Shown here: positions 4,952 to 11,858 of the stretch, one piece after another | Layout of the letters: each line of letters begins with the position of its first letter | How positions within the stretch are numbered: the first letter of the stretch is position 1 | From: a virus | Length of the DNA: 42,117 bases | Virus record (IMG/VR): IMGVR_UViG_3300035670_000480 | Coordinates: 1-42,117 of that record | Reading direction: 5' to 3' (one strand) | The notes under the pieces: model-generated | Databases searched by the model: none | Told to the model about the DNA's origin: nothing | What the model saw: only the letters and a program-made list of their open reading frames with translations | Position numbers and translations under genes: made by a program

Positions 4952-5772
4952 TCAAAATCTCCTTTTTCAAAAGCATAGTCGGGCAAATTGGGAATCAATG
5001 TTGCCTCGTGTTTCGGGTAACCGTTCCAACTATCAAAGGTCTGGCAGGTGGAAAATTCTCGCAGGCCGTTGAGCACAAGCTCTTTGGCTCGCTTCATATC
5101 GTCGCCCGTGAACTCGTGGAGCTGGAAGTCGTAGGCTCCCGACTTTTCCACAGCGAGGAATCCGAACGAGTCTACTGCGTCTCCGGTTTCTGCTTCGTAT
5201 GCGAGGGCATAATAAGCGGCTTGAATGTGGTAGCCGTATTTGATGATTGAGTTTCTGAACGCCCACTTGCTGGCCGACATCGTAGTCTTGAGGTCGAACA
5301 GCACGCCACGACACTCGGCGGGGCAAATATCAAATCGAGCCTTCACGTCCACGCCTTCTATTTTGGTGAACACAGACACCTCAAAAACAGGCTTGAGGGG
5401 CATGATAATCTTTTCCCAAAGCTCGCTTTGGCGAATTGCTTTTGCAATAAATTGGGCACGAGTCACGTCCTGTTCACTCATTCGGATAGCGTTCGGGGCA
5501 AGTGCAGCTTCAAACCTTGCAGCCGCTTCTTTCCCTGCATTGGTGCGCCTGTCAAACTTTGGTTCAATCACAACCGCATTGCCAAACTCGTGCGGTTGTA
5601 GCAGCGCAAAATGAACCGCACTACCAAAGTCGAGGGCAGAACTCTTTTCGATTGTGGGGTGCGTTTGCTCAAACTTGTATCGAAGGGGTGATTTCAAGAA
5701 TGTTCTAAATTGACTCGACCCAAGGGCAGGATGGCCGTGGTACTCGGTTTCGGGCATGTTAAACTTTATCAC
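4948..5772 (-). CDS. RecE-like PD-(D/E)XK 5'-3' exonuclease
   Basis: Translation starts at GTG 5772, with AAGGAG seven bases upstream. The 274-residue product carries the RecB/RecE-type nuclease signature in order: H54 in DFGSAVHFALLQP, E131 in VFEVSV, D148 in KARFDIC, D160-x-K162 in LFDLKTT, and Q184 in YHIQAAYYAL. It should degrade duplex ends to give 3' single strands for the Bet protein encoded just downstream. Lambda Exo-type and RecE-type nucleases share this fold; the short length and the H-x-x-x-L-L-x-P motif favour the RecE C-terminal type (DUF3799-like). Confidence 0.85.
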   Translation of the reverse strand: MIKFNMPETEYHGHPALGSSQFRTFLKSPLRYKFEQTHPTIEKSSALDFGSAVHFALLQPHEFGNAVVIEPKFDRRTNAGKEAAARFEAALAPNAIRMSEQDVTRAQFIAKAIRQSELWEKIIMPLKPVFEVSVFTKIEGVDVKARFDICPAECRGVLFDLKTTMSASKWAFRNSIIKYGYHIQAAYYALAYEAETGDAVDSFGFLAVEKSGAYDFQLHEFTGDDMKRAKELVLNGLREFSTCQTFDSWNGYPKHEATLIPNLPDYAFEKGDFE

Positions 5773-7603: not shown

Positions 7604-8114
7604 AAAACTTATTCCATATGTAAATAATGCAAGAAAACACTCAGAATCACAAATAGCTCAAATCGCAGCAAGTATAAAGACTTTCGGTTTTATAAACCCA
7701 ATCATTATTGACAAGAACTATGGTGTAATTTGTGGGCACGGGCGACTTCTCAGTGCTCAGAAGCTAGGACTTGAAGAAGTGCCTTGCTTGCGCGTCGAGC
7801 ATCTTACGGAGACTCAAAAAAAGGCTTACATTCTCGCAGACAACCGACTCGCAGAACTCGCTGAGTGGGACAACGAACTCTTAAAGCTCGAAGTCGATGA
7901 ACTGAAACTTGAGAGCTTCGACCTTGAGTTGGCTGGATTTGATAGCGAGTTTTTGGAGAAGCTGAGTCCTGAATTTGAGCCTGATTTGCCAGACGAGGAC
8001 AGCAAGGACAAAGAGCACGGTAAGCTAGTGTTACGGGTCGAATTTGAGGACCAGGAAGAAATGCAAGCTTTGTTCTTTGAACTGCGAGACAGAGGGCTGG
8101 CGGTGAAAATATGA
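7578..8114 (+). CDS. ParB/sulfiredoxin-fold nuclease-like protein
   Basis: ATG 7578, preceded by AAGGAGACAAG, is the start; the upstream in-frame codons lie inside the HNH gene. The 178-residue product begins with a ParB/Srx domain: LIPYVNNARKHSESQIAQIA, SIKTFGFINPIIID, and the characteristic VICGHGRLLSAQKLGLEEVP with the G-H-G-R loop. An acidic helical tail follows. Phage proteins of this family usually stand next to DNA methyltransferases, as here, where the dam stop-start overlap is ATGA. They are thought to act in DNA binding, modification or nicking, but the exact role is unsettled. Confidence 0.82.
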   Translation: MHYEKIKTEKLIPYVNNARKHSESQIAQIAASIKTFGFINPIIIDKNYGVICGHGRLLSAQKLGLEEVPCLRVEHLTETQKKAYILADNRLAELAEWDNELLKLEVDELKLESFDLELAGFDSEFLEKLSPEFEPDLPDEDSKDKEHGKLVLRVEFEDQEEMQALFFELRDRGLAVKI

Positions 8115-9052
8115 GCGAGTTTGGCATGCCGTACATGGGAAGCAAGAGCGGCATAGCTGAAAGCATCGCCATCAACTTCCCCAAGGCTGATCACTTTTAT
8201 GATTTGTTCGGCGGCGGCTTCAGCATGACGCATTGCATGCTCGAAACCAAGGCCAAGAACTATACGCACTTCCATTACAACGAAATCAAGCCCTACATCG
8301 TTGACGTTGTGCGCCGAGCCATTGCTGGCGAGTTCAATTACGCTACGTTCAAGCCTCCGTGGGTGTCACGCGCTGAGTTTCACGAGAAGAAATACACCGA
8401 TGGTTATGTGGCGGCGTGTTGGAGCTTTGGTAATAACGGAGAGAACTATCTATTTTCTGAAGATATCGAAGAATACAAGCGAACAATGCACATGGCTGTT
8501 GTGTTTGGAGAGTTTAATTCTTTCGCAAAAGATGTGCTAAAGTTTGACAAATGGCCTGAAAATGCTAGAACAATTAAGCAACGGCGTATCTATTTGCGAC
8601 AGCTACTTGAGCATTACCGCAAGACAAAACTGCCAAGCGTTCTCATTCCGTTCTTGAGCGAGAAGCAGAAAGCAAGCCTCGCCGCGCATCGACCTTTTCA
8701 AGAGTTGCAGCAGTTGGAGCAGTTGGAGCGGTTGCAGCAGTTGGAGCGGTTGCAGCAGTTGCAGCAGTTGACTCTCACCAGCCTTGACTATCGAGCGGTT
8801 GAGATATTGCCCAACAGCGTTGCCTATTGCGATATTCCTTACGCTGGCACCGCTGAATATGGAAACAGCTTCAATCATAAAGAGTTCTTTGATTGGGCGG
8901 CTTCTCGAACATTCCCCGTGTTCATCTCTGAATATGATGTGCCGGATAAGCGCTTCAAGCTCATTTATGAAGTCAAAAAGCGTTGCATTCTGACGCAGGC
9001 CGGAGACTCAAACAAAGTCAAAAAAGAACGGCTCTATTGGAATGGGGTTTGA
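8111..9052 (+). CDS. DNA adenine N6-methyltransferase (D12 class)
   Basis: The 313-residue product has the Dam-type motifs in order: the AdoMet-site opening MPYMGSKSGIAESIA (residues 6-20), motif I HFYDLFGGGFSMT (28-40), and the catalytic motif CDIPYAGTAEYG (240-251), where D-I-P-Y replaces the usual D-P-P-Y. A target-recognition region lies between. Residues 199-220 are an unusual Leu-Gln/Glu-Gln/Arg tandem repeat. The enzyme probably methylates phage DNA against host restriction or for regulation. The Ile in the catalytic motif is known in some active relatives. Confidence 0.88.
   Translation: MSEFGMPYMGSKSGIAESIAINFPKADHFYDLFGGGFSMTHCMLETKAKNYTHFHYNEIKPYIVDVVRRAIAGEFNYATFKPPWVSRAEFHEKKYTDGYVAACWSFGNNGENYLFSEDIEEYKRTMHMAVVFGEFNSFAKDVLKFDKWPENARTIKQRRIYLRQLLEHYRKTKLPSVLIPFLSEKQKASLAAHRPFQELQQLEQLERLQQLERLQQLQQLTLTSLDYRAVEILPNSVAYCDIPYAGTAEYGNSFNHKEFFDWAASRTFPVFISEYDVPDKRFKLIYEVKKRCILTQAGDSNKVKKERLYWNGV
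8704..8770 (+). repeat. 9-base tandem repeat inside the methylase gene
   Basis: Seven or so imperfect units of GTTGxAGCxG encode Leu-Gln-Gln, Leu-Glu-Gln and Leu-Glu-Arg triplets between residues 199 and 220 of the methylase. Whole-unit gain or loss keeps the frame, so length can vary without breaking the enzyme. It lies just before the catalytic motif. Confidence 0.8.
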
Positions 9053-9254: not shown

Positions 9255-9703
9255 TGGCAATGCCCAAGCGGTACGACTTCAAAAATAATCCAAAAGACAG
9301 GCAGCTTGGAATCTCCATGTACATCGTTGCCGGTGGGCGCTATTCCGACGACCCTAAAAATCCGCACCATAGAGGCATGGCGTGGCGTTTAGGCCTAAGT
9401 ATTGACCAGCTAGCAAGGTATCGTGAAGAGGATGAAACGTTTGATGCGGAGTGTGAAGCTGCTCTCGCTGCTGAAGATTTCAATTTAAGGCAGAAGGCAA
9501 TCAAGGGCTGCTTCAACAAAGACGGTGAGGTTATTGCCGAGAAGCTTCTAGCACGCTTCCTAGAATCCCGTGGCGTCATCGAAAAAGAATCGAAAGGCCC
9601 TACAACAGCGCTGCAACTTAATGCAGGAAGTGGCGGCATACAAGTGGCCTTCGTCGAGCCTAATGCAGCACTGCCAGAGGCTATTGATGGCCAAGAGACT
9701 TGA
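9254..9703 (+). CDS. terminase small subunit candidate
   Basis: ATG 9254 follows AAAGGGGCATTTTG. The 149-residue product has an N-terminal DNA-binding-like helical region (GMAWRLGLSIDQLARYREED), then a helix pair with AAEDFNLRQKAIKGCFNKDG and EVIAEKLLARFLESRG. It occupies the canonical small-subunit place directly before TerL and overlaps it by 17 bases. Small subunits bind the packaging site and recruit TerL. Sequence similarity within the family is low, so position carries most of the weight. Confidence 0.65.
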   Translation: MAMPKRYDFKNNPKDRQLGISMYIVAGGRYSDDPKNPHHRGMAWRLGLSIDQLARYREEDETFDAECEAALAAEDFNLRQKAIKGCFNKDGEVIAEKLLARFLESRGVIEKESKGPTTALQLNAGSGGIQVAFVEPNAALPEAIDGQET

Positions 9704-11858
9704 GCTCCCGAAAAAACTTCAACCGTTAATCACCACAACATCACGCTACAATGTGGTTCATGGAGGCCGTGGAAGCGCCAAGAGTGAGAGCGTAGCACGA
9801 GCCCTTATCATCGCTGCCATGCAGGGCTACCAACGCATTCTCTGCTGTCGTGAGTTTCAAAGCTCTATTCGTGAATCGGTGCACGCTCTGCTCAAAAGCG
9901 TTATCGTCGAGCATGAGCTGCAAGCCTATTTCGAGATAACGTATGTAAGCATCAAGTGCGTTGTGACAGGTTCTGAGTTCGTATTCGCAGGCCTTGCGGA
10001 AAATTCCGTTGACGGCATCAAAAGCCTTTTTGGATTCACTATCGTTTGGGTCGAAGAAGCCCAGCGCCTATCCCGCCGCTCGATGGATTTGCTCCTGCCC
10101 ACCATTCGAGCGAAAGATTCTAAGTTCTATTTTACTTTCAACCCCGAGCTTGAGACAGACCCTGTTTACAAACGCTTTGTAGGCTCACCAGACCCGCAGG
10201 ACGACGCTCTTGTCATCGAGATGAACTGGAACGACAACCCGTGGTTTCCTGACGTTCTCCGCACTGAAATGGAGGCCTGCAAGCGACGGTCGAACGATGA
10301 CTATCTCCACATCTGGGAAGGCAAAACTCGCACCTTCACTAAGGCATCAATCCTTGGACATCTTGTGAGGATAGATGCATTTGAGCCTGAACCTGATTGG
10401 ACTCCATATTATTCGATTGACTGGGGTTTTTCGGAAGACCCAACCGTTGGACTTCGATTGTTTTACGCCAACCGAAAACTCTACATCAGGAATGAATCAC
10501 ACACATATCACACCGAAATCAACGAATATAGCAGAGTCTTTAGAGCCGCACTCCCAGGCGCAGACCACAATGTTTTATGGGCTGATAATTCCAGACCAGA
10601 AAGCATTTCATATTTGAACAATCCACAAAATTATGATGACCGCAGACCGCTCAAGGTCAAAGCCGCCCCCAAGTGGTCTGGTAGTGTCGAAGACGGCATC
10701 GCTTGGCTTAGGTCTCTTGATGCCATCATCATTCATCCAGATTGCAAGGCGAGCATTTACGAAATACCACGATACTCATGGAAGGTGGACAAAGTTTCTG
10801 GGGATGTTTTGCCGATTCCTGCAAGTGGGAACGACCATTGCCTTGTCGCTGGCTCACTGATTCAAACTACCAAGGGCCTTGTGCCAATCGAACAGCTTAC
10901 AAGCGGGGAGCTTTACTCTTTCGACGAGTCGAGCATGAGTGTGGTCACGCAGAAGTTTTTCAATGCTAGATACACCGGAACCAAAAAAGTGCTATGCGTT
11001 ACGCTTGCCAACAGTCATAAGATTGTTGGTAGCACTAAGCATTTTGTTTTGGGGGAAAAAGGATGGAAGTTTCTAGGAGACCTCGAAAAAGGGGAAAAGA
11101 TTGTTGCGATAGACAACTCATTGTCGATGGAATTAGTTTCATCAAAGACAAAAAATCAGGATATTATCTTTGCAGCCATAAAATCAACGGAAAAAGAGAA
11201 CGACTGCACAGATACGTTTGGAAAAAGCATCACGGCTCAATTCCAGAAGGTGGGCATGTTCATCACAAAGACCACAACAAAGATAATAACGACATTAAGA
11301 ATCTTGAAATCACAACGGCATCAGCCCATGCGAGTCACCATTCTAGGACAGAAGAAAGAAGGCAAAGCTCAAGAAAAAATGTGCTCAAGGCTCAACTTCA
11401 AGCAATTCATTGGCACAAATCTGAAGAGGGAAGAAAGTGGCACAGCGAAATGGCAAAAGCTACCGCACTACTCCGCCAAAAAGTTGATGCGACTTGTCAA
11501 CATTGTGGAGCAAGTTATCAAAGCAAAACGCCAAGAAAATTCTGCTCAAACAACTGCAAATCCGCAGCAAGACGGGCGTCAAAAGTTGATCAGATTTCAA
11601 GGCAATGTCGCATTTGTGGAGTTTCGTTCAAAGCTGACAAATACTCAAAAATCCTTTGCTGCTCCCAAGAGTGCGGAATTGCTCACCGTCGTAAGCATCG
11701 TGGACTTAGGAGAACAACCCGTCTACAATCTTGAAGTGGAGAACACGCACAACTATTTGGACGCCGCCGGTATAGTCCATCACAACTGCGTTGATGCCAT
11801 CAGGTATGCTTGTCACAAGCATATCAAGAAAAAGTTTACCATTTACGACGTGATCTAA
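9687..11858 (+). CDS. terminase large subunit interrupted by an intein
   Basis: ATG 9687 (ribosome site AGAGG) gives a 723-residue precursor; longer starts lie inside the small-subunit gene. Residues 1-384 are TerL: Walker A GGRGSAKS (26-33), Walker B region FTIVWVEEAQ (117-126), and nuclease acids in SIDWGFSEDPT (~D245) and VLWADNSRPE (~D300). Residues 385-700 are an intein. The final 23 residues (CVDAIRYACHKHIKKKF then TIYDVI) complete the conserved N-D-H/D-A-I-R-Y nuclease element. Spliced TerL would be 407 residues, the normal family length, so splicing is needed for a working packaging motor. It translocates DNA into the prohead. Confidence 0.9.
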   Translation: MAKRLELPKKLQPLITTTSRYNVVHGGRGSAKSESVARALIIAAMQGYQRILCCREFQSSIRESVHALLKSVIVEHELQAYFEITYVSIKCVVTGSEFVFAGLAENSVDGIKSLFGFTIVWVEEAQRLSRRSMDLLLPTIRAKDSKFYFTFNPELETDPVYKRFVGSPDPQDDALVIEMNWNDNPWFPDVLRTEMEACKRRSNDDYLHIWEGKTRTFTKASILGHLVRIDAFEPEPDWTPYYSIDWGFSEDPTVGLRLFYANRKLYIRNESHTYHTEINEYSRVFRAALPGADHNVLWADNSRPESISYLNNPQNYDDRRPLKVKAAPKWSGSVEDGIAWLRSLDAIIIHPDCKASIYEIPRYSWKVDKVSGDVLPIPASGNDHCLVAGSLIQTTKGLVPIEQLTSGELYSFDESSMSVVTQKFFNARYTGTKKVLCVTLANSHKIVGSTKHFVLGEKGWKFLGDLEKGEKIVAIDNSLSMELVSSKTKNQDIIFAAIKSTEKENDCTDTFGKSITAQFQKVGMFITKTTTKIITTLRILKSQRHQPMRVTILGQKKEGKAQEKMCSRLNFKQFIGTNLKREESGTAKWQKLPHYSAKKLMRLVNIVEQVIKAKRQENSAQTTANPQQDGRQKLIRFQGNVAFVEFRSKLTNTQKSFAAPKSAELLTVVSIVDLGEQPVYNLEVENTHNYLDAAGIVHHNCVDAIRYACHKHIKKKFTIYDVI
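10839..11786 (+). other. intein within TerL (316 aa)
   Basis: The intein begins with Cys (CLVAGSLIQTTKGLVPIEQL, block A). It contains a block-B-like segment (GSTKHFVLGEKGWKFLGDLE) and ends with block F/G (VYNLEVENTHNYLDAAGIVH, then H-N) before the +1 Cys of the extein. All residues for class 1 splicing are present: Cys1, His in block B, His-Asn at the end, Cys+1. In the intein's own frame, about residues 105-285 show no endonuclease motif and look like arbitrary Lys/Thr/Gln-rich sequence. The HNH endonuclease occupies the same DNA in another frame. The insertion point is the highly conserved N-D-H | D-A-I-R-Y site. Confidence 0.9.
11063..11734 (+). CDS. HNH homing-type endonuclease nested out of frame in the intein
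   Basis: The frame differs from TerL (11063 versus 9687, modulo 3) and stays open for 223 codons. ATG 11063 has a weak site (GGGGGAAAAAGG). Residues 19-60 form the usual domain before HNH (LIVDGISFIKDKKSGYYLCS, then RERLHRYVWKKHHGSIPE). The HNH core is GGHVHHKDHNKDNNDIKNLE, residues 63-82. Two C4 zinc ribbons follow (C145/C148...C161/C165 and C182/C185...C200/C204). It is presumably the enzyme that cuts intein-less terL and spreads the element. Ribosomal frameshifting or a separate start must make it, as it cannot be read in the intein frame. Confidence 0.85.
   Translation: MEVSRRPRKRGKDCCDRQLIVDGISFIKDKKSGYYLCSHKINGKRERLHRYVWKKHHGSIPEGGHVHHKDHNKDNNDIKNLEITTASAHASHHSRTEERRQSSRKNVLKAQLQAIHWHKSEEGRKWHSEMAKATALLRQKVDATCQHCGASYQSKTPRKFCSNNCKSAARRASKVDQISRQCRICGVSFKADKYSKILCCSQECGIAHRRKHRGLRRTTRLQS

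Follow-up and report, generated by a model that had tools for sequence, protein, structure and literature searches.

In a virus of bacteria (IMG/VR record IMGVR_UViG_3300035670_000480, of which positions 1 to 42,117 were analyzed and are called the window here), the gene for the large subunit of the terminase, terL, contains an intein, and a second gene encoding an HNH endonuclease lies inside this intein in another reading frame. We propose that the two very probably form a composite mobile element, a cis-splicing mini-intein that shelters a separately translated homing gene, with the second frame over that gene merely kept open. A sequence-only reading of this DNA had under-called the two-frame arrangement in the window, which our analysis confirms as real, and had recognized neither how common it is nor that it passes gradually into TerL genes with split inteins.

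A terL Intein with an Uninterrupted Frame

The window, 42,117 bases long, carries myovirus genes (tail sheath, baseplate wedge, and endolysin). Its terL open reading frame (ORF; positions 9570–11858, plus strand, probable start at ATG 9687) has no stop codon across the element at 10839–11786. In the terL frame, this element is a 316-residue intein with Cys1, a block B histidine (His68), the block F sequence VYNLEV, and a terminal HHN (...GIVHHN), followed by Cys+1 at 11787–11789. It matches the Pfam profile Intein_splicing (E = 9.5e-10) and the NCBIfam profile intein_Cterm (TIGR01443), and residues C1, H68, and N316 are invariant in an alignment of 26 inteins. Deleting the intein in silico yields a seamless TerL (...NDH-CVDAIRYA...) that aligns unbroken with the intein-free TerLs of phi1422 and NrS-2 (NHCIDAIRY). 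Every defining feature of a class 1-style intein that we examined is present: a nucleophilic first residue, the block B histidine, the His-Asn end, Cys+1, the Hint fold, and in-frame insertion at a conserved site that is uninterrupted in homologues. The element is predicted on these grounds to be self-splicing.

AlphaFold2 models built with alignments of relatives show two confident Hint halves (approximately residues 1–90 and 281–316), with predicted local distance difference test (pLDDT) scores mostly of 84–97, and give residues 97–272 scores of ~30–52; this linker of ~175 residues is probably disordered. With Foldseek, inteins of DnaB, RecA, and DnaE rank at the top for the predicted structure (best E = 1.6e-7). 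The solved inteins closest to it in profile comparisons are gp41-1 (E = 1.6e-22), natural split inteins from phages. Pfam and NCBIfam scans of the window element gave no endonuclease match in the linker. A tblastn search of phages with the whole intein-frame protein returned zero matches, which fits an unconserved linker.

In the −1 frame relative to terL, the same DNA encodes an HNH protein of 223 residues (11063–11734, plus strand), with an ATG at 11063 and a TGA at 11732–11734 that falls within the block F codons. The protein matches HNH_3 (9.1e-15) and phrog_15471 (5.4e-44). It retains the HNH motif and two zinc ribbons of the pattern CxxC...C(x3)C, whose eight cysteines are all present; these residues occupy columns conserved in the family. 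The window protein therefore combines the motif and the zinc-binding, DNA-recognition ribbons by which HNH homing endonucleases are recognized. Its mean pLDDT is 90.7. The nearest solved relative is I-HmuI (PDB 1u3e; profile E = 7e-4), to which Foldseek assigns a probability of 0.96 but an E value of 0.007 and a low TM-score, hence a remote relationship. With the codon usage of the other genes of the window, the probability that this HNH protein leaves the intein frame open is 0.016, and the longest alternative-frame open run within those other genes is 147 codons. These data bear out the description given by the sequence-only reading: an intein frame open throughout with Cys1, block B His, His-Asn, and Cys+1, a middle third devoid of an endonuclease motif, and a complete HNH protein with two zinc ribbons in a second frame.

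The Two-Frame Layout Recurs at 100 Loci

A tblastn search of annotated phages detected HNH homologs beneath the genes annotated as terminase large subunit of Acinetobacter phage Highwayman, Tetrasphaera phage TJE1, and a Rhodobacteraceae phage; each lies in a different frame from terL, with an identical offset. In the annotated isolates Highwayman and TJE1, only terL is annotated and the HNH gene is not; the overlapping layout explains how such genes are missed. This search and scans of viral and genome contigs together provided 183 distinct HNH loci. According to a profile-based classification, in which a locus is nested when the HNH lies in a longer ORF open through the whole HNH domain, 100 of the 183 are nested (79 after clustering at 80% identity) and 83 are not. 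The sequence-only reading had suggested looking among relatives for the same layout, and had named an in-frame HNH in close relatives as evidence against it; we observed the layout at these 100 loci, and in-frame fusions at none of the 183.

The relation between the frames is nearly fixed. At 98 of the 100 nested loci, host codons begin one base after HNH codons (host = HNH+1). The sole nested loci with the +2 offset are L179 (1910–4210) and L180 (1830–4124), where stops have been eliminated from the opposite frame. Apart from the window there are 99 nested loci, of which 98 match a C-intein profile, and the splice junction (marked by a slash) is nearly always the TerL sequence HN/C.DAxRY. Contigs carrying the loci are labeled as Bacteroidota, Bacillota, Patescibacteria, Planctomycetota, Pseudomonadota, and archaea, labels to be taken with caution since metagenome bins are among them.

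Selection Acts on the HNH Frame

Codons differing by one change, counted in ten close pairs, show a synonymous-to-nonsynonymous ratio of 403:185 when read in the HNH frame and 116:524 when read in the intein frame. Changes in these pairs fall 367, 279, and 696 times on HNH codon positions 1, 2, and 3, respectively; this codon-position bias, whose measurement the sequence-only reading had proposed, points to selection on the HNH frame. In a wider set of pairs, mean amino acid identity over the same DNA is 0.58 for the HNH protein versus 0.36 for the intein frame. As most HNH-frame changes are synonymous and HNH identity is the higher, the HNH protein is the conserved product.

Stop codons were compared with the expectation from synonymous shuffling. 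Free HNH genes contain on average 7.65 stops in the +1 frame (7.29 expected). Nested HNH genes contain none, although 2.40 are expected even from shuffling that retains the already adjusted codon composition of these genes. L179 and L180 have no stops in the +2 frame, where 5.7 and 9.7 are expected (P < 0.001 each). Since the open frame of these two loci is the other one, the stop-free frame follows the intein and not the HNH gene. The near fixation of the frame relation is accounted for by the number of stops to be cleared, ~7 in the +1 frame versus ~20 in the +2 frame. These comparisons show an intein frame that, over the HNH gene, is under almost no sequence constraint apart from the exclusion of stops. 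They lend support to the interpretation preferred in the sequence-only reading, a nested homing gene in a mini-intein tolerating an arbitrary linker: the linker is little conserved, stop-free, and of low pLDDT.

Evidence for Probable Homing

The terL genes of Highwayman and Acba_21 have flanks 99.5% identical and differ by a single exact insertion of 981 bp (327 codons). In a further 41 Acinetobacter phage records, similarity to the Highwayman terL is confined to its flanks or to part of them. Differences are clustered directly to the right of the Highwayman site, where ALRYAL becomes A-[intein]-CRYAI, including a Leu to Cys+1 change. This one clear case has the pattern expected from conversion around a homing event, which would also supply Cys+1. 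By its kinship with the Highwayman element, the window element may be mobile in the same way.

Fractured TerL Genes among Non-Nested Relatives

Among the 83 non-nested HNH loci, 69 adjoin a TerL-like gene. In 42 of them, an upstream ORF encodes the TerL N-extein and N-intein, a downstream ORF encodes the C-intein and C-extein, and the HNH gene lies between the two; in two more the N-terminal part was not seen. These 42–44 fractured TerL loci presumably encode split inteins. They include L020, L021, L023, L025, L032, L132, and L159 and represent a source of new candidate split inteins. We rejected "free-standing" HNH genes as a single class, as about half are such fractured TerL loci. The ORF encoding the C-intein keeps the offset of nested loci (+1) in 34 of the 42 fractured loci, and offsets of the N-intein are near even (+1 in 17 and +2 in 18 of 42). 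Descent of the fractured loci from a nested ancestor is suggested.

Nested and non-nested states are interleaved on HNH trees, with 10–13 changes. A single clade of nested loci was rejected (p-AU = 1e-62), with the caution that support is low for many of the deep branches, several of which are long. The closest kin of the window is the nested pair L012/L013, followed mostly by fractured loci. We consider it more likely that nested loci broke repeatedly than that fractured loci were repeatedly repaired, a direction that we infer because repair would require the removal of several stops.

Two other organizations were observed. In the isolated Brochothrix phage BL3 (L004, 727–2607), TerL is split: gp2 corresponds to the N-extein and N-intein, gp3 to the C-intein and C-extein, and between them only the zinc-ribbon end of an HNH gene is present. 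BL3 carries a candidate natural split intein. At L045 and L057, TerL contains a short contiguous intein without HNH, and an HNH gene lies directly downstream of terL. In the window, the two intein halves are on one continuous frame and not, as in split inteins, on separate ORFs.

Proposed Mechanism and Alternative Explanations

Read in the terL frame, the two Hint halves would fold together, excise, and ligate the TerL exteins at the conserved C-terminal nuclease motif, as the intact splicing motifs suggest. Read in the −1 frame, the sequence separating the Hint halves would constitute an HNH gene of its own, with translation beginning at an internal start codon of the shared mRNA. Its product would cut intein-free terL alleles, and repair would copy in the whole element. 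Comparison of relatives indicates that selection bears on the HNH amino acids and that the intein frame over the HNH gene is barred from little besides stops, since a stop would truncate TerL. Counts of stops show that the frame relation became nearly fixed because the +1 frame is far easier to clear. Once stops do arise, a locus would survive only where the C-intein half acquires a start codon, producing a fractured TerL with a split intein; we observed this state, and its derivation from the nested one would follow the direction favored above.

The HNH start is an ATG just upstream of the conserved core in 88 of the 94 nested loci with a usable start, and an upstream stretch matching the Shine-Dalgarno (SD) consensus over ≥5 nt occurs at 24 of 99 nested loci versus 5.4% of control out-of-frame ATGs. 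Both observations favor internal initiation in the nested group. At L082, an HNH-frame stop immediately precedes the HNH ATG. The HNH stop lies at block F, a median of 55 nt upstream of the splice junction in nested loci, so that the HNH gene fills the position of in-frame endonuclease domains. Ribosomes translating terL might alternatively slip into the HNH frame by programmed −1 frameshifting and produce an N-intein–HNH fusion without an internal start. The HNH gene does lie in the −1 frame, the usual direction of slippage, at 98 of 100 loci, and canonical slippery heptamers are about fivefold denser near HNH starts (31/3012) than upstream in TerL (95/44146), although AT-richness may explain this. 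Such a heptamer is nevertheless found at only ~22 of 98 loci, and the one in the window, A AAA AAT, is ~80 nt downstream of the HNH ATG. The position of the SD-enriched ATGs and the stop in L082 also argue against slippage, and a −1 slip would miss the HNH frame at the +2 loci L179 and L180. Frameshifting to read both frames, one of the options listed by the sequence-only reading, is in our opinion improbable.

We consider it slightly less probable still that the HNH frame is the remnant of an earlier insertion, now decaying and unexpressed in this phage, with the intein alone active. The lack of a strong SD sequence in the window and the reduction of the BL3 HNH gene to its zinc ribbons would be compatible with decay, but the window HNH is full length, its motif and zinc ligands are all intact, and HNH-frame changes in relatives are mostly synonymous. 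The remaining option of the sequence-only reading, in which two compensating sequencing or assembly indels displaced an HNH domain that was originally in frame, has a negligible probability. The same frame relation at 98 of 100 nested loci comes from independent assemblies and from isolates, including TJE1 and Highwayman; none of the 183 loci has an in-frame HNH; and start and stop codons of its own delimit the HNH gene. Recurrence at ~100 independent loci excludes compensating indels.

Several points weigh against a composite element with a separately translated homing gene. We infer splicing, HNH expression, and cleavage alike. Upstream of the window HNH start there is only a weak SD-like stretch, GGGGGAAAAAGG, with a 3-nt consensus match, so that the assignment of the start to ATG 11063 is indirect. 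The enrichment of slippery heptamers near HNH starts belongs here as well. With the codon composition of the HNH gene itself, an open intein frame at the window locus alone has a probability of 0.43, and the strong evidence is therefore the recurrence at 100 nested loci. These loci were gathered by querying collections with this HNH family, so that their counts are distinct from prevalence, and many come from metagenome assemblies.

Table 1. Features of the terL Locus and of the Nested HNH Gene
Feature	Positions	Strand	Evidence
terL N-extein	9687–10838	+	Terminase_3 8.9e-37; TIGR01547 2.2e-39; ORF opens at 9570
Intein, terL frame, 316 residues, Cys1...His-Asn (predicted to splice)	10839–11786	+	Intein_splicing 9.5e-10; seamless TerL on removal; Foldseek
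Hint domain, N-terminal half, residues 1–96	10839–11126	+	AlphaFold2 pLDDT 78–97 (residues 1–90); C1 and H68 invariant
Linker of the intein frame, residues 97–277, HNH encoded on the other frame	11127–11669	+	pLDDT 30–52 (residues 101–270); zero stops; poorly conserved
Hint domain, C-terminal half, block F VYNLEV..., His-Asn end	11670–11786	+	pLDDT 90–96; TIGR01443
terL C-extein CVDAIRY..., Cys+1, stop	11787–11858	+	ORF; alignment after intein removal
Purine-rich stretch GGGGGAAAAAGG upstream of the HNH ATG, weak candidate ribosome-binding site	11046–11062	+	Sequence; 3-nt SD match only
Nested HNH endonuclease gene, 223 residues, −1 frame	11063–11734	+	HNH_3; phrog_15471; pLDDT 90.7; I-HmuI (1u3e) nearest
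HNH_3 nuclease domain, HNH residues 47–90	11201–11332	+	HNH_3 match
Zinc ribbon 1: C145, C148, C161, C165	11495–11557	+	Invariant columns
Zinc ribbon 2: C182, C185, C200, C204	11606–11674	+	Invariant or near-invariant columns

Comparison with Known Systems

In the fractured genes described by Dassa and colleagues in 2009, a free-standing endonuclease gene reportedly lies between the halves of a split intein. The window likewise has an endonuclease gene between the N- and C-intein halves in a phage gene, and the 42–44 fractured HNH relatives match that organization exactly, in TerL. Unlike fractured genes, the window and 99 other loci have an unbroken intein frame encoding one polypeptide, predicted to splice in cis, with the HNH gene overlapping it.

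The ShiLan domain is a hidden, out-of-frame HNH with zinc fingers in phage DNA methylases, with a patchy distribution (PMC11855218, Genes 2025). The window element resembles it in having an out-of-frame HNH with zinc-binding modules within inserted DNA that leaves the host reading frame uninterrupted, and the frame relation calculated from the coordinates of that paper (GTG at position 18 of the insertion) is also host = HNH+1 (PMC11855218). The ShiLan insertion is, however, without intein splicing motifs, and its authors argue that it is unspliced (PMC11855218), whereas in the window the host frame encodes a canonical intein and the host gene is essential for packaging.

Canonical large inteins contain an in-frame LAGLIDADG or HNH endonuclease domain, and TerL inteins of mycobacteriophages are located in the ATPase domain (PMC5050341). 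The window element shares with them the Hint domain, the placement of the endonuclease between blocks B and F, and TerL as a favored host gene (PMC5050341). It differs in that the endonuclease is a separate protein in another frame and, from the known mycobacteriophage TerL inteins, in its insertion site at the C-terminal nuclease motif. I-HmuI, the nearest solved relative of the window HNH by both profile and fold, is encoded in a group I intron, in contrast to the window HNH, which is encoded inside an intein and has two zinc ribbons. We found no description in the literature of an intein with a nested out-of-frame HNH, a comparison that excludes the preprint 10.1101/2025.01.02.630785 and Dassa et al. 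2009. Priority for the nested organization is uncertain, because that preprint, on actinobacteriophage inteins of "non-canonical architecture", falls outside the comparison.

Out-of-Frame Nesting in Other Genes

Other nested endonucleases were observed. L118 (1824–2882) carries a second TerL intein, at another site, with an out-of-frame Endonuclease VII ORF (2060–2803; PF02945, 7.5e-21) in the same frame relation; nesting is thus not confined to the HNH_3 family. At L119 (2–811), an N6_N4 DNA methylase (PF01555) has an intein with a nested out-of-frame HNH and the C-extein TQKPRILYDKI, on a contig that begins inside the element. At L164 (4140–6254), a DNA methylase gene devoid of intein motifs contains an out-of-frame HNH ORF (5099–5590), an arrangement corresponding to the ShiLan type (PMC11855218); the same contig also carries a nested TerL intein. 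Elsewhere in the window, repeats of LEQLQQLERLQQL form a run near the C-terminal third of a DNA adenine methyltransferase-like gene (8111–9052).

Implications

Homing inteins are usually described as one polypeptide with splicing and endonuclease domains. Here, the two functions would be carried by two proteins encoded in overlapping frames. The intein frame would represent a natural linker of ~175 residues, defined by selection as any sequence without a stop, and provides a test of the sequence tolerance of the Hint domain. The chances seem to us evenly balanced that out-of-frame nesting is general and evolved repeatedly, in several nuclease families and host genes, and that the nested state is the precursor, through the appearance of stops, of split inteins and fractured genes. 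The graded series from nested loci with an open frame, through fractured loci with split inteins, to endonuclease genes beside TerL opens the origin of split inteins to testing.
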